Positions 1 through 64,000 of a stretch of DNA of 64,000 nt are shown one piece after another. The translations under genes were made by a program, and so were the position numbers. This stretch comes from Asterochloris sp. CNOR1 (lineage: Eukaryota > Chlorophyta > Trebouxiophyceae > Trebouxiales > Trebouxiaceae): positions 868,001 through 932,000 of the forward strand of contig OZ017762.1 of assembly GCA_963969365.1 (NCBI GenBank). Reading direction: 5' to 3'. The notes under the pieces were generated by a model that was not told the DNA's origin, ran no database searches, and saw nothing but the letters and a program-made list of their open reading frames with translations. Numbering within the stretch: position 1 is the stretch's first letter; every line of letters starts with the position of its first letter.

Positions 1-3000
1 TGCTGTAGGCACAGACTGCCTAGGGGCCAGGTGGCCTTGTGCCAGGCCTGCAGCAGGGCGTCGGGCAGCGGGTGCTGCAGGCGCACTGCCTGCTTGGCCG
101 TCAGCTGGGACATGTACCTGCAGATAGAGGACATAGTCTGATCGGCAATCTGAAAACCACTTAAGCTCTAGCATACTGTCAGCTGGGAGGTGTGCTTGCA
201 CACACAAAGGACACAAGCTAGCAGGATACTCCAGAGTGAATGCAGCTCCAGCCTTCCCTCTGCTAGACCTTGTACCTGCACGATGGTGGCGGACAGTTTG
301 AAGTCGAGCAGGCAGTGCCTGAACCCGAGCTCTGGTCGGGCTGTGCAGCAGTGAGCCTGGGCCCAAGGGCACGGCAGCCGGACACATGGCACCAGCCTAC
401 TCCCAGCCGCAGGCAGCCTCACATGGGTCAGTCACATCACCTCTTCACCTCCAACAAGCAGCCAGTACCTGACACTGAGGCATGGCTGCAGAGGCAGACA
501 CATGAGGTGTGGGGACTCACAGAGCGCTGTTGACGCGGACAGCCCCCTCCGCATCCAGGCGGCTTGTCAGGTCGCCAAAGGCAGTTGACTGCAGCAGGAC
601 CTGCGCTCCCGTGGCCTCCTGCCAGCCTGCTATGGACTGCGCCAGGGCCTGGCGCGGCCAGGCCGACTGCAGGGCTGCCTGAAGCGAAGCCTCATCTGAC
701 ACCTGCGTGCCAGAGGGACGCAAGTAAGTGGCGCCAAGGGCAGCTGCAGGCATGAACATACCGCTGAAGTCTGCTGCCTTTGTGAGAGGCAGGTCTTCCT
801 TGACTCTCCAGCGTCCCTGCTACTGGTGAAGAAGACGGCAACCTTTGAGCTGGGCCGTACTAAAATTGCCCCTGATTCAAGCACTCGCGTTTGTGTAGCT
901 CACCATGGGAATCTCCTGTAGGCTGAGGCACCCACACCCAGGGCTGAGAGCTGCCGCCAGCGTCTGGCGCACTCTTGCATTGCTGGTTGCAGTTGGCAGC
1001 TGCTGCCACTTCAGAACAAAGGGCTCCTGCACATGGCCTAGCCTGGAGGCAGCAGGAAGTGCTTGTGATCCTCAAGTTGTGTACAGGCATCAGACACACA
1101 GCAATGGGAACCAGCGAAAGCCTGAGACTGGCTGCCTGGGCACGGCGACATTTCGACCAAGCATGGGATGAGTTGGGATAAGAGCTGCACATATCAGACA
1201 CATGAACAAGCCCACTGCCGCGTGCTGGCGTCTCTGGTGGCGTCACAGCAGTTCATATGCAGCCGGGCGGGCTGGCGCACCTGTGCAGCGCCCTGTCTGG
1301 GAGCACCCCAAAGGCCAGCATGTGGGTGCAGGTCAGCCAGAGCACGCAGGCCTGGGTGGGGTGCCCCTGCACGGCCTGCAGCAGAGCAGCACGTGCCGCG
1401 GGGCCCACTACCCAGGGATCCCTGGCCTCCAGACCTGCAGTCAGAGGTGGCACAGTGTGTCAGACAACTCCTGCAGCAGCCATCTGCCTGTGATGTGCTG
1501 GGAGCAAAGGGGAGAAATGGAGCCGTCGCCTCCAACGAGGAAGCAGAGTGAGAGCAGGGGCTGAGTACACTTGCCACACTGTGAGCTGTTACTGGCAACA
1601 GTGACCCAGGGCAGCTGCATCTGTCAAGTGCATGTGCACCACCAGCTCTGCTGCACAGCTCTGCTCAGCTCCCCTGCCCAGTGTGGACAGACAACCAAAG
1701 CAGCTGGCCCCACCTGGAACCTTTGCGCTGTGAGAGGCGTGCTGCACAGCTTTGCACATCTCTCCTGCCCAGGCTTCCGCCAGCTCAGCCCTCTCTGCAG
1801 CCACCCAGAGCTGCAGCAGGCGCAGCATTAGGTCCAGGGCAGCGCTGCTGCGCATGTCAGCTGCAGGTTGGGTCTGCTGGTCGCCAGTCACATCCACAAA
1901 GCCTGTGGTGGCTGCTGTGGGGTCAGTCAGCGGGGCGCTGGCTATGCGAATGATCCCGTGCTGCAGCAGCAGGGCTTTCTCTGCCCAGCTGGCTTGCACC
2001 TGCAGGCAGCGCGGGGCAGAGTGCAACCATCAAAACAGTGAGGCTGTGCAGACGATCTGGCGGGTGACTGCAGGACATTTGCAGCGCAAAGGGCGTGGCT
2101 TCAAGCGGCCCAGCAGCACAGGAGCTCCAAGAGACCCTCTACACAAGTGTTGTGCACAAGCCCCAATCTGAAGCACAGCCGGTGTCCCACACGAAGCAAA
2201 GCATGGGCACTGGGGGCCAAGTAAAAGCAGCAGCGGCAGGTCCCACAGTGGACAGGCTTCCTCAAGGCTGCTGAGCCACAGCTCCAGCATGTATGCTGCT
2301 CTCCTTGGCTGCTGCCAGCCCCAGCCTGTAGCTGGCCTCATGCTGCATCGTTGACATTGCATTGACGTTCAGAGCCAGACGCATGGAGAGCACCTTGGCC
2401 GCAGCCAGCCACAGACGATAGCTCGGCTGCTGGCTTTCCAGAGCCTTCTCTCCAAACCCTGGCAGCTGCACCGCCTTGGCAGGCGCTGTGGACAACACGT
2501 GCTGGGTGTAGAGCGGCAGGTACAGCAGCCACAGGCGGGTGTGGGTCAGCGGCATGCTAAGCCCCTTCGCCAGCACCTTGAGCGCACGTTGCAGCGCCAC
2601 GCCTGCAGGCAGAGGATCCAGCAGTGTCGACCCCAGAACTCGCATTGCAAGCAGGTGGTGACTTGACACGAGGGACGGGCAACTTGATCACCATAGCAGC
2701 TTTGCTGGCCCTCTTCGTATACTGCATGGGCAGACATGTTTGGCGCACCACCCTAGCCGCTGGGTGAGGGCGCGTACGGCACTGGAGCATTCAGTTCACG
2801 CCCACCTGACTTGCCAGGCTCTGGCTGCCTGAAGCCCAGGCACTTGACTGCCAGCAGCAGCCACTCCCCCTCCTGACCCTGCAGCGACTCAAAGCACTGC
2901 CTCCAGTCAGCCTCGCTCAGCGCAGCAGGGCCGGCAGCTGGTGAGCTGCTGGCCGCAGTGGGGGCTGCTGCAGGGGCCGCTGCCCCAGCAGGCAACCCCG

Positions 3001-6000
3001 CCGCCTGGCTGGCAGAGCCGCCCTGGAAGTAGCGTCCCAGCTGGCGCCTCCCAGGCGCTGCTTGGCTCTCCTCTGCCTCGAGGTGATCTCCTGGGCCACC
3101 GGCCGGCAAGGCAGGCAGCTCGTACCCGTCCCAGCTCTGCAGGAGGCTCCAAGGCAGCGGCGGCAGCCCGTTCTGCACAGAGCCCAGCAGCTGAGAGGCA
3201 AAGGGGGTCCTCTGGGGCCCCTCTGCGGCCTCGCCAGATTCTGGGCCGGCCTGCCAAGCTGCTGGCACTGTGTACGCAGGGCGAGCCGTCTCAAAGGAGG
3301 TCGCCTTGCGCCGCAACAACTCCACCCGCTGCTGGAGCAGGCGCGTTGAGGCGGCGCTCCTGGCACCGTCCGTGCCTGGGAGCAGAATGCGGTTGGGGCG
3401 CATGTTCCCCAGCAGCTGCTTGGCCAGCTGCTCCAGCTGCGCTGCTGTGAGGCTTCCCCCCGGGAGCTTGGGCATCACTGCCTTGACGCCGGCCCTGCAG
3501 ACAGCAGATCAACAAGCTGCAGCCAGAGTCAAAGGTGGTATGGCAACTAGCACGTATTGGCATTTGTGATGTTGTCTTCAAAGACACCTCCAGAGCAGAC
3601 CTGTGTCAGCAGTAAGAGCAAGTGCTGGCAGGGCAGGACGCCATGCAGGCATCAGTGCTGCCTGATGCAAGTGCAGGTGGCAAGCGCCGGGGATAAGCTA
3701 GGCTTGTATTCGAAATCAAAATTTCACTGGCATCTCCAAATGCAGGCACTGAATTGGCGACTGACAAAGTGCTGGTAACGAAGAAGCAAGTTGAACAGTT
3801 GCAAGCTTGTGGCCATACCAGCAGCCAACTGTTCTGGCATATATGCATGGTCGACAGCATGCCCACAACTTCCCACAAGGGTCCCAGGAACATGCAATGA
3901 TTTGCATGACAACAGTTATTACAGGGGAACGCTGCAGTAAGGCAGATAGCACAACCGCCCCTGAAGCACATGCACTCTGCACCTCCTGGCCAGGACCTGC
4001 AGGTCTGAGAGGATGGTCACCCCCTGCAGCTGGTAGTCGGTCTTCATCTGGTAGGGGCAGGCAGCATCGTTGCATTTGCCACGAGCGTCAAAGTAGCAGA
4101 GGGGCCAGTGTGGGTCCAGGCGGTGGGCAAAGGTGGCGGAGGTCAGGGGCATGCGACTGACTAGCTGGTAGGCCTCAGTCAGCCTGCAGGGCACAGGGAG
4201 CATTGACAACAGAGCCGTGCAGAGCCGTGAAAGCGAGGCTGTGCACAAGAACACTGACGTGCTTTTGAAAAAAGGATTGTCCAGGAGCAAAGCCAAAATG
4301 TGGCTGCTCCCATGCTAAGATAAAGAGGGCAGCAGGCTTGCACCCTTTAGGCAGCTTGAGCTGCACCACTTTAGCAGCAGCCTGCCAGGCCTGGCTGCGA
4401 ATCGCATCTGCACACTGGCACAGCATCAGCACAGCAACAGCGCAGCAGCAGCATCACCCCCACACATCTGTTGTCATGCACACCTGATGACTGTGTCTGC
4501 TGGGCATGTGTCTGCTGGTATGCAGAGCATCACACTTCAACCCACACCAAGCCAGATTGGATGCGTGGACCATGAGCAGGGAGCTCCCCCGCACATCAAG
4601 CGCAGCAGAGCAAAGCCCCTGGCTGCCTGGACCCACCTGTATGTGTGGAACATGAGCAGGGGGCTCTCATATGCCGTTAGTGCGGCTCCAGTGGGTTCCT
4701 GTAACCGCTGCAAGGCGTGAGCCTCATCACTGTGCAAACGCAGCTCCTGCTGGGGCCCAGCCCATGCCAGAAAGGCAAAGGCGCCCAGCCCCGGTGCAGC
4801 CTCCCCAGATGCCTTAGCCTGCACAGGGATGAGGTGATCTTGTGCATCCAATGTGCACTGTAGGTTGAACTGCATCCAGGAGCACCTTTTGTAGCCCCAT
4901 CTAGGAACAGGCATTCACTCCCCTCAGCCTGCGGGCCAGAGGCCTGGTGCCTTGCTCAGTGAGTTCTCAATCAGTCTGAGCAGGCATTGCAGGCATAAGT
5001 TCAGAGCATGTAGTGATCTGGCGCTGCCAACCCCCGTGTCAGGGCTGCACCATTGGAATCCACGCCTCACAGCCCTGGCACACTGGTAAAGCCCCACTCC
5101 CGCCCACCTGCTGGGGCTTGCTGGCCATAACGATCTGGATCCCCCCACTCTTAGGCCTGCCTGGCACTACCTTCTGCAGCTTGGCCAACTTCTGACTGCC
5201 TAACAGGGGGCTGAACACATCCTCCATATCGCCGGCTGCAGAGCTGGGTGCCCCAGCCTCCCCCAGTGCATCTGCCTTGCGCTTTCCACCCACAGCAGCC
5301 GTAGCCACAGCTTCGTCTGCACCGCTTCCTGCAAGGGCAGGGGCCCAACATCAGGCTGCTGGCTGCCCCTGCTATGTCGCGCATAGCTGCACCAGCACTT
5401 CCACGAAAAGAACAGTGATGACAACTTGCTGCTGTACCTGTGGACAGCTTTAGAGCCATGCAAAGGCAACATATGGTAGGGTGCAGCAGGGTGGACAAAT
5501 TGTGCAATGCATTGGTGTCTCCTTGCAGGGTCCTGCAGGGGCACCACACAAACTGACAGCGGAGGTTGCAGCACACAGACGGCACAACATCCAGCAGCTG
5601 TCAATGCCACCGACCCACCTTGCGGCGTCTGGGCGGCCACGTCAAAAGGTGGCGGCTGGGCACGCGCTGGGGCATGTTCCCCCAATGGCGCAAAGTGCAG
5701 CGTGCTGCTGCCGTCTGCCGCCGGTGCAGGCAGCCCCTCATCTAGCTCCATGGGCTCTGCAACATCCTGTGGGCCTGGCTGGCGGGCAGCCTCCACCTCA
5801 GCAGTGGCATCGCCCAGGCCCTCAAAACTGATGAAGGCTTCAGGGGAGGCGTGCTGGGGCACAGAGGCAGAGGGCGCCTTGTCAGCCTGCTTCTGAGCAG
5901 GGACAGCAGCGCCCCTGCTCTGTGCAACGTCTAACTGGCCTGCGACAGCCCCCTCCTTGCTCGTGCCTAGATGGTTAGGCCTGGTCTCAGCTGCTGGCTG

Positions 6001-9565: not shown

Positions 9566-9613
<48 letters not shown>

Positions 9614-18817: not shown

Positions 18818-21770
18818 TCAGCTCACTGGCAGCCCATGGGGGAACTCCATTGAGAGCTCCTGCTCCAGGTCACGCGTCGCGTGCACCTTCTGGCTGTACT
18901 CCCCACGCTGCCGCGCCCTGGCATCTGCCCTGCACCGTGCAACGGTGTAGTCTCTGTCATGATCTCTGACGGGCTGATTGCCGCTGCCTTGTGTGGCTGT
19001 GCTCTGCACACTGATGCGCCCAAGGCATGCACACTGCATGGTGCAAGGTTGCTGTTGCCTGGTGGACTGTGTGCGTTCCTTCTACGTCTGCTGCAGATGC
19101 TGGCTGTTAGCAGGTTCAGAATGCAAGCAGCCAGGACAGCTACTGGCATCATAGCCCTGCATTGCTCACGCCACATGCTCCTGCTGACAGCAGATGACCA
19201 GCGCGCCTCTCACAAACTGTTGCAAAACAAGCCAAGATATGTTGCACCTGGCATGCCTCACCTGGCACTCTCCTCAGCCATTGCCTTGTCGTGCTTGACA
19301 TCAAAGTCAGTGTGGGCGTTGAAACGTGACCCCTCCCCTGAGCCGTGGATGTCATGCCAGAAGTCCAGGGAGGTTGCATTGTCCTGTGCGCGGCTACGCA
19401 CCGCCTGGATTCCTTCAGAGTTGGCCACCTGTGCAGTGTAGAAGTGTAGATGTGGGTAGGCATGACAGAGCATGGGGTTCTTGCCAGGCCTGAATGCCCT
19501 CAGGGTTCTCACATGCAGCGTATGTCAACATTATTGCAAGAGGTGTAAAACTGCATTGGCATGAAAGACTGGCGCAGCTACGCAGGGCCTGTATGCTCTC
19601 AGAGTTTGCCACCTGCACAGTACCGCCCTGCAGGTATTCAGTGAACCTTCCACCGCAGGTGTGAGTGGGCATAACACAGCAGGTAGGTCTTGGGGTAATT
19701 GTGGCTGCGCAAGGCGTACTCGCCCTCAAGAACTGGCCACATGCAGCGTGTGTCAGCGCCAGTTTCAGAGGTGTGAGACTGCATCGATGTGGGGATTAGC
19801 ACAGCAGTGCACCGTCTGCATGCTCTCAGAGCTGACCACCTGCGAAAGGTCGGATTGCTGTCCTCACCCAGTCCTCACCCAGCAACTAGAAAACTTGCAA
19901 TGCATTGAGGCACTGGTGCCCTCACCAGTCTCACCATCACTGCCTTCAAAACAGCAAGCATGACTTAGCGCAACAGTACCTGGTGTGCGCCGCAGTGTGC
20001 ACCGCCCGACAGACCTCAAACAGAGCGTCCCAGGGTGCACGTGGCACAGCTGGTTGCGCAACGTCTGACTGTGCCGTTGCTCAGGGGAGGGTGCCAGGCA
20101 GCAGGGAGACAGCTCACCGGCAGGATGCCTGCTGCTGCAGAGTCCGCCATGACCTGCTGTGTTGGGGCAGTGGCAGGGCGCTGGCTGGGCCCTGGGGAGG
20201 CCAGGGCTGCTGGCGTCTGCAGCGGGTTCTCGTGGCTGCTCTGGAAGATGGGGTGGTGAGTGCGCGTGATGCGCTCCATGCCGCGCTTCTGCAGGGCAGG
20301 ACAAACAGAGCTTCAGGCATTTTGATGTTATGCGCTGAATGTAATGCACATCTGGCAAACAGGGGCAGATATAAGTATGGAGCTGACGATGCCCTTCATG
20401 CTCGCTTCAGCAGGGCAGCACATTCTGCTGTGAGCTGTGAAAGTCTAAAAGAGATAGGGGTTCAGGGCAGGCCGGCTGGTGGTCTCATTGTGCAGGTTTG
20501 CTGCAGTGCTGTCCAGACAGCAACTGAAGCAGCATGCCGTTAGTCCCATGCAGAATCATGTGGGGGCCTTCACTATGTACTGATAGTGTCAGCCACAACT
20601 TGTCACAGCTCTAGTACAGGGAAGGGGTTTTGCACACCGGCATCTGCTTTTTAGATGCACAAACTGTGCACACCTGACACCCACACCCAGCACCCCTCTC
20701 ACAAGTTGGTGCCGAGCTCCAGCTGTACTCGCAGCAGTCTTGGGCCGTCACCCATGGCAATGTGCTGAGAAAGATTCTCAGGGTGCCACAGTGCAGCACA
20801 CCGCAACTGAGTCTGCCAGGTGTCCCCCACCGCAATGGATTGCAGGTGTCTGCTGTGACCCCGGCCAGAGTTATGGGTGCAGGCTGAGCTGCCACCCGCA
20901 CAGCTGCCTGGAGTCCCAACCAGGCTGGTGAACACGCCCATTATCATCATTTGCACCGTTTCCCAGCTGGTCTTTCTGTGCCGCCGCCATGGTGTGCTAC
21001 AGGCGGCCTGGGTGTGTATGTCCGGTGTCCATGGCCCGGCAATGCTATGAACCGCTTACCTGCACCGCCTCCCAACTGGTCTTGGTGTCCCCTGCGGCAA
21101 TGCGCTGCAGGTAGTCGGTGTAGGCATCGTGACGCCGCCCCTTAGGCTTGGCAGTCATGCGGTCCAGGTCTGCCTCATTCTCCCGCGCTTTCTGCTGCTC
21201 AAACTGGTACCTGCAGGTATGGCCAGGTGAAGGAATAGAGTTCCTCGCCACAATTGCTTTCTATGCAGGGCACTGGCGCATGTGAGGCAATGCTCAAGGC
21301 CCAAGAGAACTTTGAAGGGCTGCATGATGGTGCTTGAGTTGCTACATGACAGCCAGTGCAGCACGGTGACTGGTACGGTATACGCTGGACCTGAAACAGC
21401 CTTGCCAGGCCGTCAGTGCAAAGATGAGGCTGGCATGCAGTGAGTGCAGCCAGCAAATTGGGTGCACCACCAAGTATCAACTGGTTGGGTGTGCAGCTGG
21501 CACCATGAGAGCCGGCCTGACTGAGCTGGATGACTCACTTGACAGATGCTGTCAGCGGCCTCTCTGGCAGTCCGTAAACAGGCTCCCCTGCAGCAGGCAG
21601 GTGCACATAAAGTTCAGCCATGGCACGCCTTCAACCTCATGTTCACCACCAGCAGCACTTTCGATGCACAGACACAGCACATGTAACACTACATTCCCCA
21701 GCACCTCACCTAGGCTGTTAAAACTGATGGAGGCCACGGGCGCACTGAACCTATCAGGCGCTGACTGCAT
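18818..21770 (-). CDS. Unrecognised 236-aa protein, possibly flagellum-associated
   Basis: Six exons join with consistent phase: 21710-21770, 21539-21587, 21060-21210, 20118-20288, 19262-19428, 18818-18929. Features: N-terminus MQSAPDRFSAPVASISFNSL, a charged segment KYQFEQQKARENEADLDRM, then YTDYLQRIAAGDTKTSWEAV, a low-complexity Pro/Ala stretch, HTDFDVKHDKAMAEESARAD, and a charged C-terminus with QRGEYSQKVHATRDLEQELS. No signal peptide, membrane segment or catalytic motif is visible; it is largely helical and polar. I do not recognise the family. The nearness of IFT27 and the microtubule-inner-protein-like composition make a ciliary role possible, but that is a guess. The phase agreement over five introns is the main evidence that it is a real gene. 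Confidence 0.72.
19405..19860 (-). repeat. Echo array of exon 5 acceptor region (about five copies)
   Basis: The start of exon 5 and its acceptor (19405-19440) are repeated in degraded form near 19490, 19595, 19725 and 19820. Each copy shows a tgcatgc/tgaatgc-ctcagag core, a (t/c)tgaccacct or ttgccacct block, then gcacag or gcagcg. Spacing is about 80-130 bp. Translated copies keep fragments such as VANSEGIQA, VANSESIQAL and ENPEGIQA but lack the rest of the exon. Confidence 0.75.
20690..20890 (-). repeat. Echoes of exon 3 end in intron 3
   Basis: Two degraded copies of the exon 3 segment coding YLQRIAAGDTKTSWE are present: HLQSIAVGDTWQTQ near 20830-20850 and LSQHIAMGDG near 20750-20775. Using either as an exon breaks the phase between the real exons at 21060 and 20288. 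Confidence 0.7.
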
Positions 21771-22079: not shown

Positions 22080-25000
22080 CTAGCAGTTCTTGCCAACAAT
22101 CTTGGCTGGGCAGATCTCGAGAACATTGCCGGGCTTTCCTGGGACGGAGCCCTTCACGACAATAGCGCGTCGCTCAGGGTCCACCCGCAATATCTGCAGG
22201 GCAAGGGGCAGATGTTATGCTTTTGCATTGGGGGACAAGTTGGCAACTCTGTTGTGACGCTGAAGGGCCCTCGGCAATCTATGGCGCTGCTGACCCCACA
22301 AGTACACCAACAGCCTGGCCACACCAATGCTGAAGTGTCCCGCAGCAGCAAGAACAGTCAGCTTCGACCTCAACAGGGCTGGCTGGGCCAGGCACCAGCT
22401 GCACCTTACCACTCCAGGACCTTGACGTTCAAGGCGCCACACACATCATGTGACCAGCTGCCTGCTCACCCGGAGCTTCCTGATCTTGACGCGCTCTGCT
22501 CCCAGGTGTCCTGCCATCTTCAGGCCAGGCAGCACCCTGCCGGGCGTTGCTGAGGCACCAACTGAACCATGCTGCCTGTGAGACTTGGAACCATGGGTCA
22601 TGGGGCCACGGTGGTGGTTCCATCGCTTCACATCACCTGCATTTGGGCAGGCAGGTGTGAGCAAGTGTGAGGAAGGGCACCTCAGGTGAGCAATGGGAGC
22701 GCAGCTACATTCCGCGCCCCTTTCATGAACGTCTTGGTCTTCCAGGGCCAGGACAAGAACAGGAACAAACAGCTGGTGTGGCGCTGCGAAGCTTGGCTGC
22801 ACTCACCCTCAAAGCGTCGCTAGGGAGTACCATCTTTGAAAGGAATATGCCCTGACAGGAAGTGCCAAGGCACAGCCCATGATGTACAGGTCACAAAAAG
22901 GACTGGAATAACTCATTCCCGGATACCTTTCCAATGGACTGCCCTGCAAATGTCCAACAGGTCCCCCTGCTTCAAAGGCTTCTGACAGCCCACTTGACCA
23001 GCCCACTTGACAGGCCACCTGGAGATGCTGCCAACCCCCTGGAGATGCTGCCAAACAGCTCACTCACCCTGGAAACCCTTCCCAATGGACTGCCCGGCAA
23101 TGTCTACGAGGTCTCCCTCCTTAAACAGCTCCTCCACCTTCAGCTCCTGCCCGGGCTCAAAGCCCTCAATGTCCTCCAGCTGCAGGCACAGCAGAAGGAC
23201 ATCCTCAGCATCGCAAGTGGTTTATGTGCAGTCCATATCATGATGACTATGATGGTTTGAAGCTCCTAGTCTGCTCCACAGGCAGGCAGGCTCAGCACAT
23301 TTTCAGCTCCCGTCAGGCCTCATGTGCTCATTTTTCTTTAGCTGCAGCACACAAACTCTCGTAAGATCAGCACGTTTGCACAGGTGGTGGCTGTCCGGGT
23401 AGGGGATATATGAACTTAGTTGGGTATCTTGAGGGACATGGCATGCTTGTGCTGTCTGTGAACTGCATGCGCATATACCTAGCAGACTCAGGTGGCAAGA
23501 CACAAAAAAATGAAAGGATCAGTCGCCGGCCCTGAAAGGTGAGATGTGCCACTCCAGTCCCTACCATCCTGTGAGCACCTGTGTTTGACACCAGGGTGGG
23601 GCTGCCAGGAGCTGGCCAAGGCGACATCCTGTGCAAGGCCACAAGCTATGGCGGTCTGAGCAAGTTGTGCATGCACTCGATCTCCTGCCGCGCGGTGCCT
23701 GCACAGTGGCCTTTGTGACCATCCAAGAGCGCAGCCAGCGCGCCAGCCATCCCAAACTCCCTCAGGCGCTGTATAAAGGGCGTCTCTGCCTCCTAGCTGT
23801 GGCTGCTGGGGGACGGCCCTAGTCTCGCCGCACACAGCAGCTCAGCAAGCAGACCAGTGGTGATGCACCAGGGCAGCACGATCACTTTCCTTCTTCAACA
23901 CCTTGAGCTTCATGTACGATGCTCCTCACAGCCAGCAGCACAGTCAGCCTGCTGCCTGGATGAGACTCACCCGAAACTCCCTCAGGCGCTTCATGGGGGG
24001 CACCCCAGCCTTCTTGCAGTGGCCAACGAGGGGCTTCTTGGAGCGCGTCTCACGCGTCTCCAGGTACCCCACCTGCACTGCCTGGTATCCGTTCTTCTCA
24101 TTGGTCAGCACCTGCAAGCAGTCACAGTGGCTGAAACCTGCCTCGTGCCGCAGTAATGCTTTCATTGCAGATAAGCGCCTCCATGCTCTGAGGGTCTAAG
24201 GCCCCATCGATCCTTCATTGCTGTAGCTCACTTCCAAAAGCCTCAGATACCAGTTTCGATAGTCAGCACTTGCACCAGGCAGCAGCGGACCCAGACACTG
24301 GCATCTCTGCGCTGCCTTGCAGAAAGGTGCTCGTCCCTTTGCTCTTGTGCCGCGCAGCCAAGGACCGAGGGCTGCTACAGATGAGCAGGTACCAAGGGGC
24401 CCATGACCGGCACCTGTGGCAGCACCAGGGCCTGCAACTGCCCATTGTGCTGGCAGGAAGCGCTCAGCACTGCGGCGGCCTGCCTGTCCTGATGTCCTCA
24501 GAGCTGTGCATGGCCCCTCGAGCAGAACAGGTCCACCATGGGGCTTTGCTGTCTTCATGCTGGCCCTCACAGGACCACTCCATGTTGGTTCTGACAAAGA
24601 CTCAGGAGCATGGCTGGTGTGCAGCTCTTGCTTCTCACCTGCGTGACCTTGTTGCCATCCTCCAGTGCAATGACTGTGGCTGACAGCGAGAGGCCTTCCG
24701 GGGTGAAGATCTGGGTCATGCCGGCCTTGGTGCCCCAGATGCCCATGGCCACCTCTGCAGCAGGCATGGCTGGCTTTGTTGCAGTGATTGCTGCAAAAGG
24801 AAACAGTGCACGTGTGCTGCAAGTAGTGCAACACGCATGCTGCACACACTGTGGCAGTTTCACGAGGAGTGCCTGCCTCATGCAGCCTGCAGAGGAGGCT
24901 GCATGTCCCCTATGACTGTAAGGTGTGGCACAGCCTGCTGGTGCAGCCCAAAGCAGCGGTGTGGCCTGCGGCCCACCTGAAGTGTTGCCAGCCTGCACAG

Positions 25001-32392: not shown

Positions 32393-32600
32393 GTTTTGCC
32401 TCCTGCTGCTGTGACATGGGTCACATCCCCAGCACAGGAGGGCTGCCCACAGACCCTTGTCTCACGGCGCCAAGGTGGGTGCTGTCTGCTGTTGCTGCTG
32501 CTGCATGGGTTACTTCCCAGGACGGTAGCTCTGCCTGCAGAGCCTGGATTCACAGGCTGCAGCACCAAGGTGGGCTCTTTCTCCTGCTGGTGGTGCATGG
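32340..32600 (+). repeat. Echo of the exon end at 32392
   Basis: The segment tgcctgcagagc...cacaggctgcagc(g/a)ccaaggt(a/g)gg at 32353-32398 recurs at 32533-32578. A partial copy (ggcgccaaggtgggt) lies at 32466-32480. Confidence 0.7.
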
Positions 32601-33012
32601 ACCCTGGCCCCTGCAAGGGAGTGCTGCCTGCACAGTTCAGGACCATGAGCTGCCACCGCAAGCGCCATGGTGGGCTCTGTGCCTCACTGCGGTCGTTCCC
32701 CGCAGCTGCCGGGGTTGATTTCAGCTTATGCAGCAGTCTTAGGTGCAGCACACAGAACACATGCATCTACGGTGTTGCAGCCTTGTCACATGAGACGACA
32801 ACTTTGCAGTGGGCTGGCAGTGCATCTGGTGACTCTCCCTAGACATCAGCAGCTGTGGTTGCTGGGTCTTCCCGACTGTGACTCAAAGACGTAGGTTGCC
32901 CCTCCCCAACCCTACGCTACTTGACACAAGACTGCAGCGCTTGCACCTGCCAATTGACGTGCTCACTCCAGACTGGTCCAGGCGTCTGCCTTGAGTGCAC
33001 GCGGCCCTGCAA

Positions 33013-39100: not shown

Positions 39101-42100
39101 CCCTCTAGCAAGAGCATGCAGCATGAGCACCTACAGGCCCAGCATGGACTGTGTGACCTAGCATGCTGGGTCAGTCCCTGCTGGCTCAACACGACCCCCC
39201 ATCTGATATGCTGGCAAGGTGCACAAGGGCCCTAGCTTCTGGGTCTGCTGCTGCCACATGACAGGCTCAACCTGGCGCTGCATCAGCTTTTGCAGGCCAG
39301 TCATTGCCCAAACCCCTCCCCTTGTGCACGGCATGCTGCACCAGCTGCTGCAGGCAACCATTGCCCCCCATGATGGGCACACGCATGCTGCATCAAGTCC
39401 TGCAGGTCTGGCACGGTCCCACGTTTTTGCCTGGCATGCTGTGTTCCTAAAGGCACAGAATGGATCCCTGCCGAGATCTCAGGGACTTTCGTGAGCATGC
39501 AGGCCTGAGGTGTCACAGCCTCTCGGCAGGCATCCTTGAGTCCAGCATGCATCATCTGTGACGCAGATGCGCTGGATCAGCTCCTGCAGGTCTAGCACGG
39601 CCTCTGAACCTGCTGGCTCGCCTAGCGCGGCTTACTATTTGGACACCCTATGCCATTGAGCCCCCAAGGTGTGGCAGGCCCTAGGCATGCACTGCTCCCA
39701 GCAGCCGCTGCAGCCCCGGTGCTGCTCCAAGCAGCAGCTGCTGAGGGTACTGTGCGTGGGGTGCTGCTGATCCACTTCAGAGCTCTGCCTGCACACCTGT
39801 GCCACCCATGCTTCCAGGGTGTGGCAGGCCCGCCAGGTTGAGCAGGCATGCTGCATCAATCTAATAGATGGCGGGGGGACCCACCTTGGACACAGGCATG
39901 CTGCATCAATGCCTGCAAGCCCTCCACTGCGCCCAGCAGCTGCTGCAGGTCAGCCTCGTGAGCAGCCTGCTGCTTCTCCACCTCAGCGCTCTGCCGGGAC
40001 ACTTGTGCCACTTCTGCCTCCAGCATGTGGCAGGCCTTGCAGACGTCCTGGTGCTGAGCGCTGCTGGCTGCCAGCTGGAGGTCCAGGCGGTCTCTCTGCT
40101 GGGCCGAGGCGTGCAGTGTTGCCTGCAGGGACAGGGAGCCAAGGTGTGGGTTCCTTTGACTGTGCTGTCAGGGGCTCTGAACCTGCAAGTGAGCTGTAGA
40201 ATTGGCTGCAGGCTGGGTTCGGCATGGCTGCCTCTCAGTGCAGAGGCGGCATGCCTACTAAACAGTGCAGAGAAGAAAGGACAGAAGCTTGAAGCTGGCA
40301 CACTGCTGAGTGATATGGAGCTCCCCCTGGTGCTTCAGGGTTGGCTCTTTCTTGCTGAGAGGTCCCCAGCCTCATTGCAGTGCAAGAAAGGCACGCTTGC
40401 CCGGTGTGCTAGGCAGGATGTCCTACCTTTGCGCGTTGCAGCTGCCCTCTGACACTGCTGACCAGGTGCTCCTGCTCCTGCAACTGGGCGTCCAGCGAGT
40501 CTGAGCCCTCAGCTACCCCCTCAAGCTGGGCCTGCAGCAGCTCTGCTCTGTCTGCTGCAGCCTCTGCCTGCAGGCTGCAGTGGAAAGCAGTCAGGCCTGC
40601 CCTGTGGCATCTGTGCAACCTTGCTGGCTGCAGAGGTCATTTGTCCAGAGCGAGGGAAATTTGTTGAGGGGTACGGGGCTTGTTTATGGAGGACATGAAA
40701 AATACAATAAGCACCTTGTCACAAATTTGCGACGCTGCATCTAGGCACGTCATCGTGGAGCCCGCCCTGCGCGGACACATGGTCGGCGCTGTGGCCTCGG
40801 TTCATGCCACCAACATGGCGATACTCAATGCCACAGTCACTGCCCCCCGGGGCGATAGGACACAAACAGGTGCGGCCCTATTGATATTGCATGCATCCAA
40901 GAGGATCCTCCAGTAGTTGCCATTTTGCGCCAAAATGCGCATTATAGGCGAGTAGCTCGTTGCATTTGCTCTGTACCAGCAGCACAAGAGAAAGCCCACC
41001 TGTGCTGTAATGTCGGCATGTTCATCTGTCAGCCTGACCAGCTCCCGCCTGCATGCCATTGCAGCGGACAGCTCCAGCAGCAGGAGTGTAAGCGCAGGTG
41101 CATCTTGCAGGTTGAGCAGACAGCACTATAGTGACAATGACAGGCTGCTGGACATGTCAGAGCAGCTTGCTGTGTACTGGCAGCCATGAGTGTCTGGCTT
41201 CAAATGCAACCCAGGGCAGACAAAGCTCGCCTGGCACTGTCCAGCTGCTCAGTGAGGCAGGCGCCCAGGCCACCACCAGGGGCCCGGCTGCCCTGGCAGG
41301 CTGCCTGCAGCTCCTGCAGCTGCTGGTGCAGGCTCTGCAGCCGCTCCGCCTCCAGTGTAGCCTGCCTGGCAGCCCTCTGATGCAGCTGCAGGTCTGCTGT
41401 CAGTCTGCGGACGGCCTGCAGCGCTAGTGTGCACGTGCCGTACAGGTCCTCTCCGCATGCACACCAGCAGCAGCGCAGTGTCCATGCTGGCAAGGTCAAG
41501 TCGAGACACAGCTTTGCAGTGTTGATGCCCCAGCGAGGGACTTTATCAGGCAGCTTGATGCGCAGGTCAAATTGGCAGACCTGCTTGGTTGCCTCAAGCT
41601 TGGTGCTGGCCTGAGCTGCTTGCGCTGTCTGCTCCTCTGCACGGCTGACTTGTCGCTGAAGGGCATCCTCCTGCTGCTGCAGCTTTTCTGCCTCCTGCGC
41701 TGCTGCCTGTGCAGCGCACTGCATGCCCAAAATACTCTTGTAGACCATGAGTAGGTGCTGAACGTTGCCCAAAGATCTGCCAAACATAGGACTTGCCTGC
41801 AGGCGGTCTGCCTCCATCTTGCTGCACATCCTGCTTGGTCGGCCGTCTTGCGAGGGGCGCCAGCCACCCTGCACAACTCACAAAATCAGACTGTCAGAGT
41901 TCTCCATGCGAGCCGGCTGGACCCAGAGGTTCTGTGAATTCAAGCCAAGCCAACCTTATCCAAGGTGGCTCACAGGTGTGCAAGTCCCCATACAGGTGGA
42001 GCGTGAGAGCAGCTCAGCATGTGTACAAGTCTTCGTGGCAATCCAGCACAAACAATGACAGTGTCACCATCACCTGCAGGGCGCCAGGGTAGCTGACCTT

Positions 42101-45100
42101 ACCGTCCAGGGTGACAAAGGCAAGGCCCTGGCTGGCCCGCTCAGGCCCCAACGTGGCAAGCCATGGCTGTACGATATGGATGCACAGAAGTGCATGTGTC
42201 CACGCAGGTGGGCAGGGCAACTAAGCATGCCTGCAGGACTGTGGAGTTCAAACAGGCCAAGGAGGCCCCACCTGCAGTGAGCCAGGATTGCTGATTTTGC
42301 CGTCCAGGGTGACTGAGGCCAAGCCCTGCTTGGCCAGTTCAGCCGCTACTGCTCTGTTGCTGGCGATCAGGTGGCCCCCAAAGGTCTTAAGCATGACTGT
42401 ATGGTGCTTCTGGTTGTATGTGATAAGGTCTAAAGGGCAGATTATCTCTCCTGCATGAAGAGGTCAAGAGGGTGCCTCAAACTTTGAAAGATCGCTGGGC
42501 CAAGTGCGTGTCAAGCTTGTAGCTGGAGCAAATGCATCATTCTCAATGCCAGCGCAGGCCTGCTTGCGCTTTGTCAGCTGCTGATAGACAGGTATGGCCA
42601 AAGATGCTCAAGCACATTGCCAATGTTGGTGACGGCGCTGCAGCCTGATGACGCATACCTGACTTGAACTTGGCCTGAACAGAGCGCTGTTTTTGGCTGA
42701 CATCGCGTGTCTGCAGCTGCTGCAGGGCCCAGATGCGCAGCCTGCCACCCCATGTCTGTGCTTTCCAGGCCTGGCTACACGCCAGCAGGGCTGCTGCATC
42801 CTTTGCAGTGGGCACCAGAACCACATGCAGCTTGTGGCCTGCAGGGCACCCAGAGCCAATCACACAGCGGCCAACACGCAAGAATTGCTGGCAGGAGTTT
42901 AGCCCAATCTCTGCCTGCAGCCTTGCCACCCATGGTGCTCGCCCTCAACAGCAGAAGGGCTGCAAACCATTCGACATCTGTCAGCCCCCAAGCTTGCAAG
43001 CAGTGGCTGCTGTTGTGCACGTCTCTTGGCAACAGTTGGGCAGCCCCACCTGCAATGAGGTCCAGTGCATCCAGCAAGCCAGATTGCAGCTCCTGCCCCT
43101 GCTTGAGGTGGAAGCACTCGTGCAGCATGCCGCACGGTGGAAGCTCTCTGCCAGCACTGGCCTGCAGCAGGACAACTTGAGCCTGTGAGCTGAGGCATTG
43201 CACATCAGAGGCTGAAGATTGCAGTAACACTGCGCCACAGAATCAGCTGGGGTTACAGGACATGAAGCCCCGCAATACCTGCAACCATGGTTCAGCATCT
43301 GCATGACTGGCTTGAGATTGTGCCTTGACAAAGGCAGGGCCTGGTCCCTCTTGTCTGGATTCAGCAACACAACTGGTGTGTCTGGGACCACTACAGTCAA
43401 GCTGGGGTCATTCCAACAGAACGGCAGGACAGGTGGCCAGTCAGTTCTGCCCCTGGACACAGTTGTCATCATATATACTTGCCTGCAGCTTGCCCAGACG
43501 GAGCTCAGCCATCTGCAACTCAGCTGCTATGATTTGAGCCGTCTGCTGGGCAGCCTGCTGCTGCTGCTGCACCTGTTGGACCTCTGCCAGCGCTCTCAGC
43601 CTCTCTTCAATAGCGTCGGGATGCCTGCTGGCATCAGCCAGGTGCTGCTGAAGCCTGCAGGGCATGAAAGCAGCAGTTGTTGGCCTCAATAGCGCTGCCC
43701 TGCATGGCTGATTTTAGCGCCTTTTGGGCAGCAGCAGCAGTGACGCCGTCCAGAACAGCTTGTTCAGACGATGCCTTGCCCATCAAGCTCTTGTTTTCAG
43801 CTACCTGTTTTGGGCAGCTGTAGGGTGAGTGTGCTCACAGGGCAGGCTTGCCTACCACTGTCATCCTGTCCCACGTTGTTTGCACAGTCCCAGGCAGTAA
43901 CACAGCAGTTTTTGCCTGCCTTGCTCGTCAGTGAGCCAGCCTCAAGCCTTGCAACATGATGTCTGCCCTGAGGCCAATAGTCTTGGGCCCCAACAGCAAC
44001 CCTGGTGCTGTACAAACGGCTCACCTGCCAAGCTCCTGCTTGAGGGGTGCCAGCCTCTTCCCCGCGTCAGCATGGGCTTTCTGGTGCTCAGCTGCCTGCT
44101 GCAGCGCTACCTGCATGCCTGCCTTGACCTGTGCAGGCTCTATGCTGAAGTTTGCAATGGAGACATTGTTGCCTGCAGGGGCAGCCCTCAGTGAGGACAC
44201 AGCTTACTGATCTGTATCAGCTGCGTGTACCAGCACTGATAGGTGGCAAAAGCATTGGCTTTGCAGACTGATGCCATGCAGGGGTTAGTATAATCTGCAG
44301 ACTTCAGCACACCTTCCTTCAGGCTGCCCTCCATCTGCTGCACAAGGCCATGCTGCTGTTGCATGGCCACGTGGACATTAGCCAGCTGCTGCAACAGATT
44401 GGCACTCTGCTGCACAGCCTCTTCATGTTGCTGTTGCAGCTGCTTGAGCTGCATTAGCTGCAAGCGGTGCACGTCCAGCAGTCACAATGCGCTTCCTTAT
44501 GATGGATACACAGGTGAGGACAGAATGAACAACAGGGAGCCGACAGGGAGTCACAATTGTGTTTGCTGCCTGCGCTGCTGAAGCACAGACAGCCTGCAAC
44601 CTGCTCAGCCAGCACTACATGATGCTGCTATTCAATGTGAACTGCAGCAGGCTTGTGCAGCCGCAAGTGTCAGCATGCTTGCCTGAAGACAAACCTATGT
44701 GGACAGCACTAGCGGACAAGGCCCAGTGACTTTGACTACTGCCTTTTGCTGATGAGCCCTTTCAGCCTGCAGACCTTCAGACCCCGCATGCTCGAAACCA
44801 AGCATGCTTTCCTGCAGACAGTTCCAGGACAATTGTTGAGAGTCCAGCAACCCAGAGCAGACTCACGTCCTCCTCAGCTGCAGCGAGCTTGAGCTCCAGG
44901 GTGTGTGCAGAGTTGTCGTCCCCTGCCAGCTGATCTGCTTTGGCGGCCTTCTCGCATGCCTCCATCTGACAGCGCAGGCTTTCTGCCTGTGCCTGCTTAG
45001 CTGCCAGCTGCACCTACAAAACATCCATTCGATGGTATGAAATCCCTGCTAGGGGCCAAGACCTGGCTGTGCTGGCGTAAGGCCCATGCTTCCCTCTCCC

Positions 45101-50209: not shown

Positions 50210-50218
50210 GGCTCCATG

Positions 50219-51734: not shown

Positions 51735-54700
51735 ATGTATGAAATGAACAAGCTGCTGCAGGATGACTTATATGGAGGGGACATCTACGACACTGTGGCA
51801 GAGCCAGTTCTGCCAGCGGCAAACACGCCTGCAGATGACTCCAGCAGGCGCCAGGTTGACCATGCCAGAGACATATGTTGCCTTCTTGTGTGCTGCTCAC
51901 AACTGCACACTCTGTGCTTCACTAACTCTACCATCATGCAGGTGCCTGTCAAGGTGCAAGAGCCCACCCCCATGGAGGCTGATGCTCCCGCCAGGTACCT
52001 GGTCAGGGCACTGCATCAATGTGTATTGGCCAGACACTCATTGGCGACCTGCTTGATCCACAGCACACCTGCGAAATGCTGTGCCCACACCTCGCCTTTT
52101 CCGGCATTTCTGTTACTTCCCTGCAGGACTGAGGCACCAACCAGCAGCATAGCGGAGCTGCAGGTAAGCTGGACTGCTCCAGGAGCAGCAAGCCATGCAT
52201 TGCTCGTGCCCTGTGCCTCCTCTGCGCATGCAGGCACCCCTGCCAGACAGCCTCCATGCCTCATCCTTGCTCTGCACATGCAGGCACAGCTGGCGACTAC
52301 CCAGGCAAGCCTGGACCGCTGGCAGAGCACCTTTGCCCCTGTGGCACAGGATGCCAGCATCCCACTTGAGCCCGATGCTATCCTGGCTGAGCTGAGGCAG
52401 ACGCGCGAGGCACAACCCAGCGCAGCTGCAGCAGGCCCTGTGAGCAGCGCTGCAGGGGACCTGCTGGCGGCCAGGCAGCGAGAGGAGAGCCTGCAAGTGA
52501 GTGTGGGGGTGGTGCAGGTGTCGGGCAGGGGATGTGGCACAGCATGCTTGCTGCAATGGAATACTGCAAAAGCGGCTGCAGCAGCACTCGCTGCAGGAGC
52601 AAGTGAAGCAGGTGTCGCTGAGCAGGACCCGCCTTCATTCTGAGCTCCCTCATTGGCACATGTTGTTGACAACTTAGCTGTTTCCAAGCCTGTGTGCCAG
52701 CTGGGAGCAAGAGGTGCATCAACAGGCAGCAGGAGGAGGGCCCACATGTGAGTGGGTGGTGCGGGACAGCTGTGTCCATCAGCAGGTGGCGCTGATGTGC
52801 TGACAGGCCATCAAGCATGTTTCAGCAGGTGCAGCAGCTTCTCAAGGGATACATGAACGTTTTAGTGCAGCGGGACAATATTCTGCACTTCAGTGGGCAG
52901 TTGTTCTTGACATGTACAGCCAGGCAGTCAAGGCCTCATATATGTCAGATGTAGCTCACGATGCAGCAGCCGAGAGCCCTGTGAGGCACGCTAGGTTGGC
53001 GGGCAGTCTGCACATGAGTGGGGTCTCAGTCAGGGGCTGGGCACGGCAAGTCGATGCTCATGTCCCACCTGCAGGCCCAGGTGGCAGAGAAGATGCTGGA
53101 GAACTTGGAGCTGCGCAAGGCCATGCACACAGCCAAGGCAGCCTCAGAGCCCACCATTCTCCAGGTGAGCCTTATGTCAGTAGGTCTGGCAGCCTCCAGG
53201 AAGGCAGCGGACTGGCTCACTGTCTGGGCTTGCAATGGTGCTGTGTTTCAACAGGGCCAAGTCCACCAGTAGGGCTGGAGTGGCTTGGCGCAGGCCAGCT
53301 ATAAGCCTGGATGAAGCCTGACAGTGCAGCTGGTTGTCACCTGGTGCAGCCAATGCACAGACAGGTTCCGAGCCCACCATTCTCTGCAGATGAGCCTTCT
53401 GTAGACAGGTCTGGCAGCCTCAAGGAAAGTGGATAGCGTGGCCATCCTGGCATGCATGTTTGCTGTCGTAAACAGGGCCAAGTCCATCAGCATGGCTGAG
53501 GTGGTCTGGTGCATGAAGTCAAGACAGCCTCCCAGGCTGTCCTTCTGCAGGTCAGGCCCCTGCTGCACAGGACTGGGCCTCTGCCAGGCAAGCCCCCCCA
53601 GCATTTGCCACATTGCCAACTCATGGCTGGCAGGTGTGCCAGCTGCTGATGGGCCCCACTGCGAGTGGTGCGCCTGCAGCATGCAGCCTACCTCTGCTCA
53701 ATCTCTTGTTGCAGGTGACAAAGCCGTTATTGCACCTTGCCCTGCTTTCTGTCTGATCCTTCACGCTGCTGCTGCCTGCAAGCTGCCCTCTAAGACCATC
53801 ACCATGCTTGCGATGCAGGTGCGCCAGCTGCTGATGCCACCCGCAGCTTCCCGCGAGTCTGAGCACGCGAACGCAGCCCAGTGTAGTGTCATGGTGAACT
53901 ACAACCCGTAACCCCTATGCCTACGTGCTGCAGGTGCGCCAGCTGCTGCTGGACCCTGCAGTGGCCCGCGAATTTGAGCGCATGAGCGCGCAGCTGCAGG
54001 AGAAGACGCGGGAGGTGCGGCGCCTGTATGAGGACACGCAGGCGATGAACTTCAGCCAGGAGGGCAAGACAGGGCGCCTGCTGATGGCCAAGTGCCGGAC
54101 GCTGCAGGTGGGCAAGGTGGTTCAGAATCAGAAAGCGGTCGCTCCGCAGGGGCCGCTTCGCTGCCTGCTCAACCTCTGCAGGCAGCCAACCAGGAGACAT
54201 GGCTTACAGTTGGCCAGGGTGCAGTACACGTCCTGCATAGCTTGACATGGTTCCTGCAGGAAGAGAACGAGGAGATGGGACGGGAGCTGGGCGAGGGCAA
54301 GGTGCACGGCCTGGAGAGGCAGCTGGCCCTGGCCAAGAGCTTTGCGGAGGACATGCGGCGTGCGCACGCAGAGCTGGAGGATCACTGCACCACGCTGGAT
54401 GAGGAGGCCGAGAAGCTGCAGGACGAGGTGGGCAGTGGTATGGAAGCTGAGGCAGCTGTGGGCCACATGGGGTTTATTGTGATTCACGCTTGGGCTGTGC
54501 TGAATGTGGAGGCTGAGAGCCTGTAGGACCATGTGGGCACTTGAGCAGAATTTAGCAAACCTAGTCTCGGTGGAAGGCTGTCATGAAATGTGGGGGCAGA
54601 GAAGCTGCAGATCCAGGCAGGAGCTCAGATTGCTGGAAGTGTACACAGGTGTGTCACAGCGTTGAGGTGTAGGACAAGATTTTTGGTCAACACTACAAGT

Positions 54701-58700: not shown

Positions 58701-60509
58701 CATGAGCTGGTTGCGCAGGGTGGACACCACCTCCCCCGAGTTGTAGGCTGAGGCTTGCAGGTACAGCACAATCAGGTAGGCCGCCACAAACAAGGAGTAC
58801 CACAAGACATGCTTGTACTTCCGCTGCGTTTCCACGGCTGCCTGCACGAAGACCACAGCTTTCACTGTTTGCATTCTGTGGGGCACATCACAACATTGTC
58901 TGCCAGCCTGTAGGGGTTCTGCAGGCCCAGCGGCACAAGGAGCTTGCAAGCCTGCAGGGCGTGGAAGACCTCCATGTCCACTGCAGCCTGCAGGGCCAGC
59001 ACACTTATTCATGGCCTCAGGTGGAGTGCCTGCAAAAGGCACCACCCGCATCTCCAGTCTCTCAGGGTGCGGGAGCTCTAGCTCAGGCTGCTGGCAAGGA
59101 CATAACAAACATTGTGTGCACATGAGAATGACTGGTTGGCAGCACTGGGTGAGGTGCCCACGAGATGCAGATATCGAGTTTTGAGCCTGCCAAACCACGA
59201 TCATGCTTTCTGTGCTCATCTGGCACAGCTGCAGGCGGAGGCTGCGTATTGCACATCTCAACAACAGCTGGCCAAATGTCACTGGGCAGAGCAAGCAAGC
59301 ACCACGTTGAAGCGGGGGCCGCACCGCAACTTTCTCCTGCACTGCCTGAGCAATCTCCTCGTTTGTGGGTGGAGCCTTGCCAGTGGCAGGGTCTGTGGGT
59401 GGAAGGCCTCTCTGCCGCCTGCGGGCGCCAATGTAGCTCCCCTTGCGGCCATCTACACCTGGCCCTGCACAGCATACCAAAGAGGCTGACATAAGGGTGT
59501 TCCACACAGAAGAGGCCCCTGCACCCATCCAGACCTGGCCCTGCAAAGCATTGCTGTTTGTTTGCAAGCGTTGATGTAGAGCTTTCCCAGCACTGGCGAC
59601 TGAGGCCCCAGCTCACAGCCTCATGGACAGAAGGGTAGCAAGTGTAAAAGAGGCCCTTGCGCCCCTCCAGACCTGGCTCTTGAAGTAGTAGCAGCATGGT
59701 TGCCGGGGGCAATGTAGATGTTTCCCAGCGCGAACAACTTTGTCCCGGCTTACTGTCTCCCTTCTCCCTCAATTTGCAACACACTTGAAAGTCCTGCTTA
59801 CCATCCGCAACTCAGCCCTTGGCCTTACCAGGGATGTAAGCAGGCAGCAGAGTCCAGGTTGCTGCCTGCCCCACATACACATGAGCCATGCCGACCTTGC
59901 AGCCCCTGCTCCATGCCACCACCCCACTCCCTCTTACCCAGCAGGATCTTGGCAGGTGGCGCCTCACGTGCCAGCTTGCTGTCGCCATCTGTGGGTCGAA
60001 GCAGCGGCGACCCGCTGGCATTTGAGTCCCCAGAGAAGGCTCGAATGGCTGGGCTGCCAGGCTCTGACTCCACGCCACCTCCGTCTGGGCCTGCAGCTCC
60101 AGCATGAGCAGCTGCCCTCGCTGCTGCCTGGAAGCCCAGGCCTGTACGGGGCGCCCTGCAAGGGCAGCAGAGGCATTAGAGTGAGGTAGCTGTGGTAGTG
60201 TCGGCTGCTTTGTCTGTAGGCAATCAGTGCCTGTTGCTGAGGCAGCTTGCGGTGTTGTGCAAGACTGAGAACTGGCTGCTACGCAAGGTGCATGCAGGCA
60301 ACTGCTGCACAACGTGGTTGCATCGTAATAAGACACCACAACAGATATGAATAGGCTCATGCCGGTATGCCTCACCTCACAGGTTTGAGAGCAGAGCGCC
60401 GTGGGGGACTGCTGGGCCCTGGGTCTGCACTGCTGTCCCCCAGGTCCTGAGAGCCGCGGCTGAGCAGTCCAGCTGCGCTATTGAAGCTGCTTGCAGAGCT
60501 TTCAGACAT
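55737..60509 (-). CDS. Single-pass membrane protein with CGDGxCExPxEFPxYGxFGC motif
   Basis: Eleven exons join in phase to 504 aa: 60376-60509, 59938-60155, 59325-59464, 59046-59087, 58895-58987, 58697-58841, 58263-58416, 57595-57762, 56851-57019, 56125-56236, 55737-55876. Residues 1-210: Ser/Pro-rich, polar, probably cytosolic (MSESSASSFNSAAGLLSRGS). One membrane segment about 221-238 (HVLWYSLFVAAYLIVLYLQA) with a basic N-flank, suggesting N-in topology. Then an extracellular part with CGDGNCEYPWEFPAYGPFGC at 289-308, QADCG, and GTWYIYLKGDYAGRVSGNVY. The C-terminus is acidic and basic (RRLLSEWSEGNRQQ; DDDDFIPEFVH). I associate this Cys motif with uncharacterised large algal membrane proteins; function unknown (sensing or adhesion is a guess). 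GC donor at 58697. Confidence 0.85.
59440..59695 (-). repeat. Echoes of membrane-protein exon 3 start
   Basis: The acceptor and first codons of exon 3 (PGVDGRKGSYIGAR) are preceded in the intron by two copies reading PGLDGCRGLFCVEHP (about 59490-59545) and PGLEGRKGLFYTCYP (about 59640-59690). Spacing is 80 and 145 bp. Both copies lose the frame soon after. Confidence 0.85.
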
Positions 60510-62156: not shown

Positions 62157-62440
62157 AAACGGTCATCATGTGGATAGCACCATGAGATCATCTTGTTTGT
62201 CAAACAGCAAGTGTCCAAGATCAGTACATGTGCCCTTCAAGACTTTTTGAGCGGAAGTCCTGGCGGCCAAGATTGACGTTGGTGGCGAAAACAGCAACTG
62301 TGAATTGGTGGCAATGTCCAAGCCCTAACCCTGCACATTGCAATCCCCGCTGTTGGCCGCATAAGCTGCCAAGAGTTGCTTCGGGAGGTGACTTTCGCAG
62401 CAGCAGACCCTGCAGGCTCATTCACCACAGAGGCAGAACC

Positions 62441-63706: not shown

Positions 63707-64000
63707 ATCTGTGTAGCACCATGAGATCATCTTGATTGTCAAACAGCAAGTGTTCCAAATCTGTAGAGGCGCGTTTCGATTTTTGTGAATTGAATTTCTG
63801 GCTGCCAGGATTGACATTGGCGGCGGAAAAAGCAACTGTGAGTTGGTGGCAAACAATCCTGTGGTCAGGTTCTCCCATAGGGTTTGAGATGCATTTCGAG
63901 ACCTGCTGTGCATGCACAGGAGATGTCCTTCCTCAGGGATTCTGGAGGTCGGTATCATCCGAGCTGCATGCTCGATTCAAATTTTTGCTTAACCTTGTTA

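Follow-up and report, generated by a model that had tools for sequence, protein, structure and literature searches.

Background

Local duplication of DNA is known in many eukaryotes. Small tandem duplications made by fill-in at broken ends are described as the most frequent class of short insertion (<100 bp) in the human genome (PMC8355091). The repair-mediated duplications of vertebrates, in the account given in PMC2671141, measure 50-619 bp, arise by proximal capture from donors within 5 kb and include an inverted case, tandem copies having been left out of that study, and the same paper cites doublets, short paired mammalian duplications that are abundant and local (Thomas et al. 2004, via PMC2671141). 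Within genes, a tandem duplication that spans the border of an intron and an exon is reported to have given the potato RdRp gene a new intron and a new exon that are spliced (PMC4974935), and intron gain by internal gene duplication, or tandem genomic duplication, is attributed in PMC3443670 to Gao and Lynch 2009. Introners are the subject of PMC9860276.

The goal of our analysis was to examine introns of the green alga Asterochloris sp. CNOR1 in which partial copies ("echoes") of the adjoining exon ends had been noticed. Our best reading is that they belong to a known type of event, small local duplications that are probably tandem, with a notable density and a skew to old age. Like the duplications described in PMC8355091, the copies are short, local and direct; unlike those, they are mostly old and decayed, lie mostly at offsets of 60-400 bp, and their tandem birth is presumed. 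They share with the events of PMC2671141, as presented there, short and closely linked copies that include exons and splice sites, with donors within 5 kb, but they are almost only direct (148 vs 2) and mostly within 400 bp, and the inverted orientation that belongs to that description is nearly missing here. Where PMC2671141 uses a spacer of >50 bp as a criterion, the median here is 78 bp in 145 pairs, a value that decayed tandems can also show. The likeness to doublets, drawn through the citing description in PMC2671141, lies in the abundance of short local duplications. A tandem duplication that crosses an exon boundary is also what the potato RdRp gene has in the account of PMC4974935, whereas here the inner copy is skipped where checked. 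Intron gain by tandem genomic duplication, as described in PMC3443670, involves the same class of mutation inside genes, but its signature is present here in few of 436 introns. Introner elements disperse similar introns genome-wide, whereas here the echo of 53136 matches only its local partner. Our literature search, which covered titles and the openings of abstracts and included few subscription journals, found no report of this pattern for a green alga.

Sample, gene models and searches

The sample consisted of the window, which is the whole 64-kb stretch of DNA in which the copies had been noticed, and ten 20-kb stretches, one each from contigs 1-10, for a total of 264 kb or 0.47% of the 56.38-Mb assembly (21 contigs). 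Genes were modelled with a gene-finding HMM that was self-trained on the 264-kb sample, without transcripts or existing annotation, and that converged on 620 introns with a median length of 186 bp and an acceptor near CTGCAG/G. A predicted exon of <12 bp precedes 73 of 555 introns, and these tiny exons are probably false; the models also contain split genes, so any count based on the models is approximate. Of the 447 exons that are 20 bp or longer, 79 begin with GT and, given the long acceptor consensus, some acceptors also resemble donors. The Pfam domains recognized in the window models were alpha/beta hydrolase, SMC, GNAT acetyltransferase and WTAP (two neighbouring models joined); a uL3 match stayed below the family cut-off and 2 of 7 window proteins matched no Pfam family.

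Pairs of copies were searched for by self-BLAST with a score of at least 36 and copies 40-600 bp apart, and the shuffled control preserved dinucleotides in 250-bp blocks. Because a BLAST self-search omits offsets below about 50 (diagonal rule), we added an ungapped scan of our own. The junction tests used introns of at least 130 bp (360 of 555) and flanking exons of at least 40 bp. Counts of phase, codon position and splice sites were made on pairs with an identity of at least 0.62 and a length of at most 250, and counts of spacers, edges, directions and substitution spectra on pairs with an identity of at least 0.68 and the same length limit (128 of 145 pairs). Insertions of at least 15 bp in pairs of paralogs were tested for copied flanks.

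Local direct copies in introns

Self-BLAST of the 264 kb found 148 local direct pairs, 2 inverted pairs and, in the shuffled sequence, 0. Hard masking of low complexity left 128 direct and 2 inverted pairs, with 1 to 39 direct pairs in each of the 11 stretches. With our ungapped scan (score of at least 34), offsets 4-999 yielded 181 matches, compared with 2 for offsets 3000-3999. The sole comparison genome, 50 kb of E. coli searched at the same BLAST settings as a check of the method only, had 0 local direct pairs. The offsets of the 148 direct pairs have a median of 141 bp and a 5-95% range of 71-462 bp; this amounts to one detectable pair per 1.8 kb, with 5.2% of the sampled bases inside detected direct pairs, and 73 of the 360 introns that reach 130 bp contain at least 20 bp of such a pair. 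Direct 6-mer matches occur at 774 per million at 50-100 bp vs 595 far off, and an excess within about 300 bp is present in every sequence class, whereas reverse-complement matches stand at 607 near the diagonal vs 598 far. Plain-reversed 6-mers also rise by 13% near the diagonal and exon-exon reverse-complement matches by 15%, so part of the 6-mer signal is local composition.

Matches of this kind could come from chance, low complexity or dispersed repeats such as Introner-like elements, and TGCAG is indeed common in the sample (7.7 per kb). With nothing in the shuffled sequence, 2 inverted pairs and 128 direct pairs left after masking, we regard this explanation as practically negligible; a genome search with 53136-53292 also returned only that segment and its local copy at 53359-53513. 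Genome searches with two 10-kb pieces of the sample (L021 and L025), in which very common words were skipped, gave 3 and 9 matches, which may be exons.

When each intron was compared with its own flanking junctions, with other junctions as the control, the own junction ranked top in 62 of 514 tests (8.4 expected). This total comprises 32 of 256 donor tests and 30 of 258 acceptor tests, with 4.2 expected for each; in reverse complement it was 6 of 514 (donor 2/256, acceptor 4/258). Decayed copies of exon ends close by are indeed present in the introns of this sample, as the earlier note had claimed for the adjoining exon boundaries, and 13 of the 15 places that it listed have a clear local copy. 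It had named matches no commoner than chance as the outcome that would count against it; they are commoner both in the pair search and in the junction tests. Its figure of eight genes in nine is close to our own, since 8 of the 13 predicted window genes tested have at least one top-ranked junction, although with up to 33 tests per gene single hits may be chance.

A score of at least 36 is reached at 12 of the 15 places and at 11.5% of 400 random positions; for this test one range was divided into 3 parts and another into 5, and a single pair has 59490 and 59640 as its two ends. The place at 4567 is backed by a 29-bp pair at 4558/4638 that is 86% identical. The range 20750-20850 is marginal, with a score of 28; its intron ranked top in the donor test, which does not give the location of the match within the intron. 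At 17190 the score of 25 is not above chance (24% of random positions equal it). Some pairs have no exon border in our models, with 19510/19738 and 59510/59648 nearly all intronic and 32342/32523 in model-intergenic DNA. Table 1 gives the coordinates of the main features.

Table 1. Exons, introns and local copies in the window (percentages are identities; offsets in bp)
Position	Strand	Feature	Basis
4558..4586	-	Copy, within an intron, of exonic 4638-4666, 86%	
19510..19616	-	Paired with 19738-19843, 71%, both copies nearly entirely in introns	
22926..22983	-	Paired with 23077-23133, 79%; the gene matches uL3 weakly	
28398..28609	+	Alpha/beta-hydrolase exon, end echoed	HMM model, Pfam
28678..28725	+	Echo of exon end and donor; 48 bp matching 28585-28632 at 92%, offset 93	
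29099..29149	+	Echo of acceptor and exon start, 82% to 29333-29388, offset 234	
29346..29494	+	Following hydrolase exon; joining to 28609 keeps the phase	Pfam Abhydrolase_1 extends across the join
32523..32635	.	Copy of 32342-32452, 75%, model-intergenic DNA	
38910..38953	-	Copy, within an intron, of exonic 38777-38819, 84%	
39732..39830	-	Copy, within an intron, of exonic 39934-40036, 76%	
42071..42144	-	Copy of exon end and donor 42269-42342, 80%, offset 198	
53075..53164	+	WTAP exon, end and donor echoed downstream	HMM model; Pfam Wtap E=1.5e-37
53165..53933	+	Inferred WTAP intron, 769 bp, three echoes of flanking exons	Protein continuity
53359..53513	+	Echo of exon end and donor, copy of 53136-53292, 72%, offset 223	Genome search
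53630..53656	+	Echo of acceptor and exon start, 89% to 53930-53956	
53814..53864	+	Further acceptor/exon-start echo, 80% to 53929-53979, offset 115	
53934..54107	+	WTAP downstream exon, source of both acceptor-side echoes	HMM model, protein alignment
59648..59729	-	Partner of 59510-59591, 72%, offset 138, almost entirely in introns	

At its echo-bearing intron, WTAP had been divided into two genes by the HMM. The exon ending at 53164, joined to the exon starting at 53934, gives a gap-free alignment to the WTAP chains 7yg4_B and 7vf2_C of solved structures, which we take to be human. Because the protein is continuous across this join, the sequence between the two exons is read as an intron whose echoes are skipped. 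Joining the outer exons of the alpha/beta hydrolase kept the phase and changed the Abhydrolase_1 match from 45.2 to 45.9 bits, and the putative intron at 28610-29345 contains both hydrolase echoes. The statement that true exons join without the echoes is thus borne out by WTAP and less firmly by the hydrolase.

Placement and decay of the copies

The bases in copies are divided among exon, intron and intergenic DNA as 0.27/0.54/0.19, and those of the sample as 0.26/0.53/0.21. The copies are thus spread almost randomly across the three kinds of DNA and are not confined to junctions. Compared with random placement, exon-intron pairs are in excess (71 vs 50.3 expected) and intron-intron pairs are too few (22 vs 38.3), which is a relative enrichment of 2.46; at a score of at least 44 the same classes give 33 vs 26.4 and 13 vs 18.5, an enrichment of 1.78. 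We simulated survivorship with one copy (>80 bp) evolving at 0.15-0.5 of the neutral rate and without indels, and obtained an enrichment of 2.4-3.4. Since this is about the observed value, the exon-intron excess needs no more than a protected exonic copy. Pairs with a border in both copies, a class outside this simulation, number 12 vs 6.6 expected. We therefore do not follow the earlier note in linking the copying itself to exon-intron junctions, as the placement is modestly off random and the slower decay of exonic copies suffices for the excess.

In 36 of 51 pairs (36 vs 15) the intronic copy is on the 3' side of its exon, with the junction-free copies split 12 to 1; a direction test at the level of exons showed little skew (28/256 vs 22/258). 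Copying directed by transcription was considered for this bias, which our preferred explanation would not predict. Anchoring of the copies at TGCAG acceptors was considered and found unconvincing, as a shared TGCAG stood no more than 6 columns from the left edge in 13 cases and from the right edge in 6 (8.0 expected per edge).

When mismatches were counted by the codon position of the exonic partner, they were almost flat, at 255/1169, 219/1164 and 284/1162 (0.218, 0.188 and 0.244). Alternative or mutually exclusive exons need coding constraint on both copies, and these values do not show it. Splice dinucleotides are kept in the intronic copies about as often as expected, the donor in 21 of 36 (21.4 expected) and the acceptor in 23 of 35 (19.8 expected). 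The intronic copies decay neutrally, and we see no sign of a role as decoys or spare exons. That the echoes could be functional decoys or alternative exons under selection is suggested by those that retain a full acceptor or donor, by the exon-like parts of the copies at 28678 and 53814, which are open in the frame of the exon, and by the 17 of 21 exon-exon pairs that are in phase, though the gene finder favours phase. Set against the splice-site and codon-position counts, and against a continuous WTAP protein that leaves no room for three echoes, this explanation is very improbable, and the suggestion that the echoes provide decoy splice sites or seed new exons did not hold up.

Mode of origin

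We consider it probable that the echoes are the decayed halves of small local direct duplications, themselves probably tandem and mostly old, that hit coding and non-coding DNA alike. Such duplications, probably tandem at birth and about 60-300 bp long, would strike both kinds of DNA equally. Where one overlapped an exon end, the outermost splice sites would be used and the protein would stay unchanged, while the inner copy would be stranded within the intron and would then decay neutrally. Selection would hold the exonic copy and exon-intron pairs would stay recognizable longer than intron-intron pairs; the echoes would have been noticed at exon borders because exonic copies decay slowly. This account presumes a tandem birth, the use of the outermost sites beyond the genes that were checked, and an origin in break repair or replication.

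The local alignments are shorter than their offsets, with a median length/offset of 0.40, and the median spacer between copies is 73-78 bp. Among the 20 pairs of at least 40 bp with an identity of at least 0.80, 2 are adjacent within 5 bp, 1 is an overlapping array and the rest have spacers of 29-526 bp, and the pairs with an identity of at least 85% are short (median length/offset 0.16). Spacers of this size, at least 29 bp in 17 of those 20 pairs, are what one would expect if the copies had been born apart, by a form of break repair in which neighbouring DNA is captured (synthesis-dependent strand annealing), like the vertebrate repair-mediated duplications, and the size and proximity of the copies are like those of the human events presented in PMC2671141. 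That paper also reports an inverted exon copy, whereas inverted pairs are nearly absent here.

Simulated tandems with 0.2-0.6 changes/site/copy and 0.12 indels/change gave a length of 60, an identity of 0.77, an offset of 137, a ratio of 0.47 and a length-identity correlation of -0.74; the observed medians of 144 pairs are a length of 58, an identity of 0.77, an offset of 147 and a ratio of 0.40, with a correlation of -0.75. A length/offset of >0.8 was found in 19% of the 144 observed pairs, compared with 15% of the old simulated tandems and 3% of the simulated spaced copies at 0.12 indels/change, although the tandem value itself runs from 37% through 15% to 3% at 0.06, 0.12 and 0.25 indels/change. 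The three paralog pairs have 0.111, 0.07 and 0.219 indels per change. In these simulations old tandem duplications would fit the lengths and identities, and spaced copies of the same age would fit somewhat worse, by a measure that is sensitive to the indel rate. Taking both sides together, we hold spaced birth to be possible but doubtful. An absence of homology beyond the aligned ends was considered as proof of spaced copying and was dropped; the value of 0.422 equals that of the control (0.422), but simulated decayed tandems give the same (0.425).

Tandem duplication of exon segments containing AGGT could also create new introns. The donor window resembles the acceptor window with a score of at least 12 in 7 of 436 introns (1.03 expected) and of at least 18 in 3 (0.0 expected), but this concerns at most a few of the 436 introns, and in 2 of the 3 best cases the predicted exons measure 6 and 15 bp and may be false. 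As a source of the echoes, intron gain is therefore highly unlikely, and small local direct duplications remain our preferred explanation.

Age of the copies

Pairs that are at least 60 bp long and at least 80% identical number 5 of 144, compared with an expectation of 45% for tandem or 15-30% for spaced copies in a simulation that included ages from 0.02 changes/site (indel rate 0.12). None of the 128 masked pairs is at least 40 bp long at 92% identity or more. At the other extreme, simulated tandems with >0.35 changes/site were hardly detected (21 and 1 of 4000), so very old events are uncountable. We compared three pairs of paralogs, in the window (76% identical), in the C6 stretch (81%) and between C7 and C16 (71%; 21% changes in aligned columns), and found no insertion of at least 15 bp copying its flanks in about 4.5 kb aligned; the sole insertion of that size was 22 bp long, and its flank match did not exceed the 95th percentile of randomly chosen positions. 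Two recent repeats, a retroelement and a 3.6-kb palindrome (about 12.5 kb), hold 0 pairs vs 7.0 expected (5.0 counting the arms once), a test weakened by selection on the element and by the non-independence of the palindrome arms.

A steady process should leave at least as many young survivors as old ones, and the scarcity of young pairs, our least expected result, therefore points to a higher activity in the past or to a past window of fixation. The process may once have been more active, or new duplications may no longer fix. A constant and still active background of local tandem duplication would agree with how widely such duplication is known, and the missing young pairs may reflect the small sample; given the few long and similar pairs, the empty class at 92%, the paralogs and the recent repeats, we judge it unlikely. 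Errors made at birth would be an alternative reason for the missing young pairs, which the normal substitution spectrum does not favour. RIP-like hypermutation was also considered as the cause and was rejected, with a transition/transversion ratio of 0.97 in the pairs vs 1.10 in a paralog pair. Of the proposal of a genome-wide habit of short local duplication, the direct, short, local and degraded character of the copies stands in all 11 stretches, whereas current activity does not, as there are almost no young copies.

A more tentative extension, which we would not yet favour, is that a past and now quiet pulse of direct-only local tandem duplication inflated intron and intergenic DNA, and that much intron sequence is its debris. 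At 0.12 indels/change the simulated detection ranged from 9% (neither copy protected) to 47% (one strongly protected), and on this basis 146 pairs would represent roughly 300-1,700 events in 264 kb. A fossil pulse, if true, would be a route of intron growth without transposons, and what switched such duplication on and off would become a question. The copies provide in any case a countable record of intron lengthening without transposons. Echoes next to exons can arise through survivorship alone, which is a caution against taking intronic copies that resemble exons for decoys or for exons in the making.

Other repeats in the sample

The C6 stretch (L019-L020) contains a 3.56-kb inverted repeat (4706-8264 / 8793-12347) that is 99.8% identical and is flanked by a 1.6-kb direct pair (3131-4707 / 17099-18671) at 81%; two reading frames that were searched there matched no Pfam family. 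At L009:3950-9297 (C1:503950-509297) lies a retroelement of about 5.3 kb and of non-LTR type, with reverse transcriptase and endonuclease domains. It has at least 23 further matches of 2.1-5.3 kb with 99-100% identity, so it was recently active. In the window, a small gene is duplicated in tandem at 60758-62314 and 62329-63852 with 76% identity including the introns, and a genome search with 60758-62314 returned only these two copies. The window also holds a diverged tandem array at 49539-49900 with an 81/162-bp period and about 4.5 units of 81 bp.
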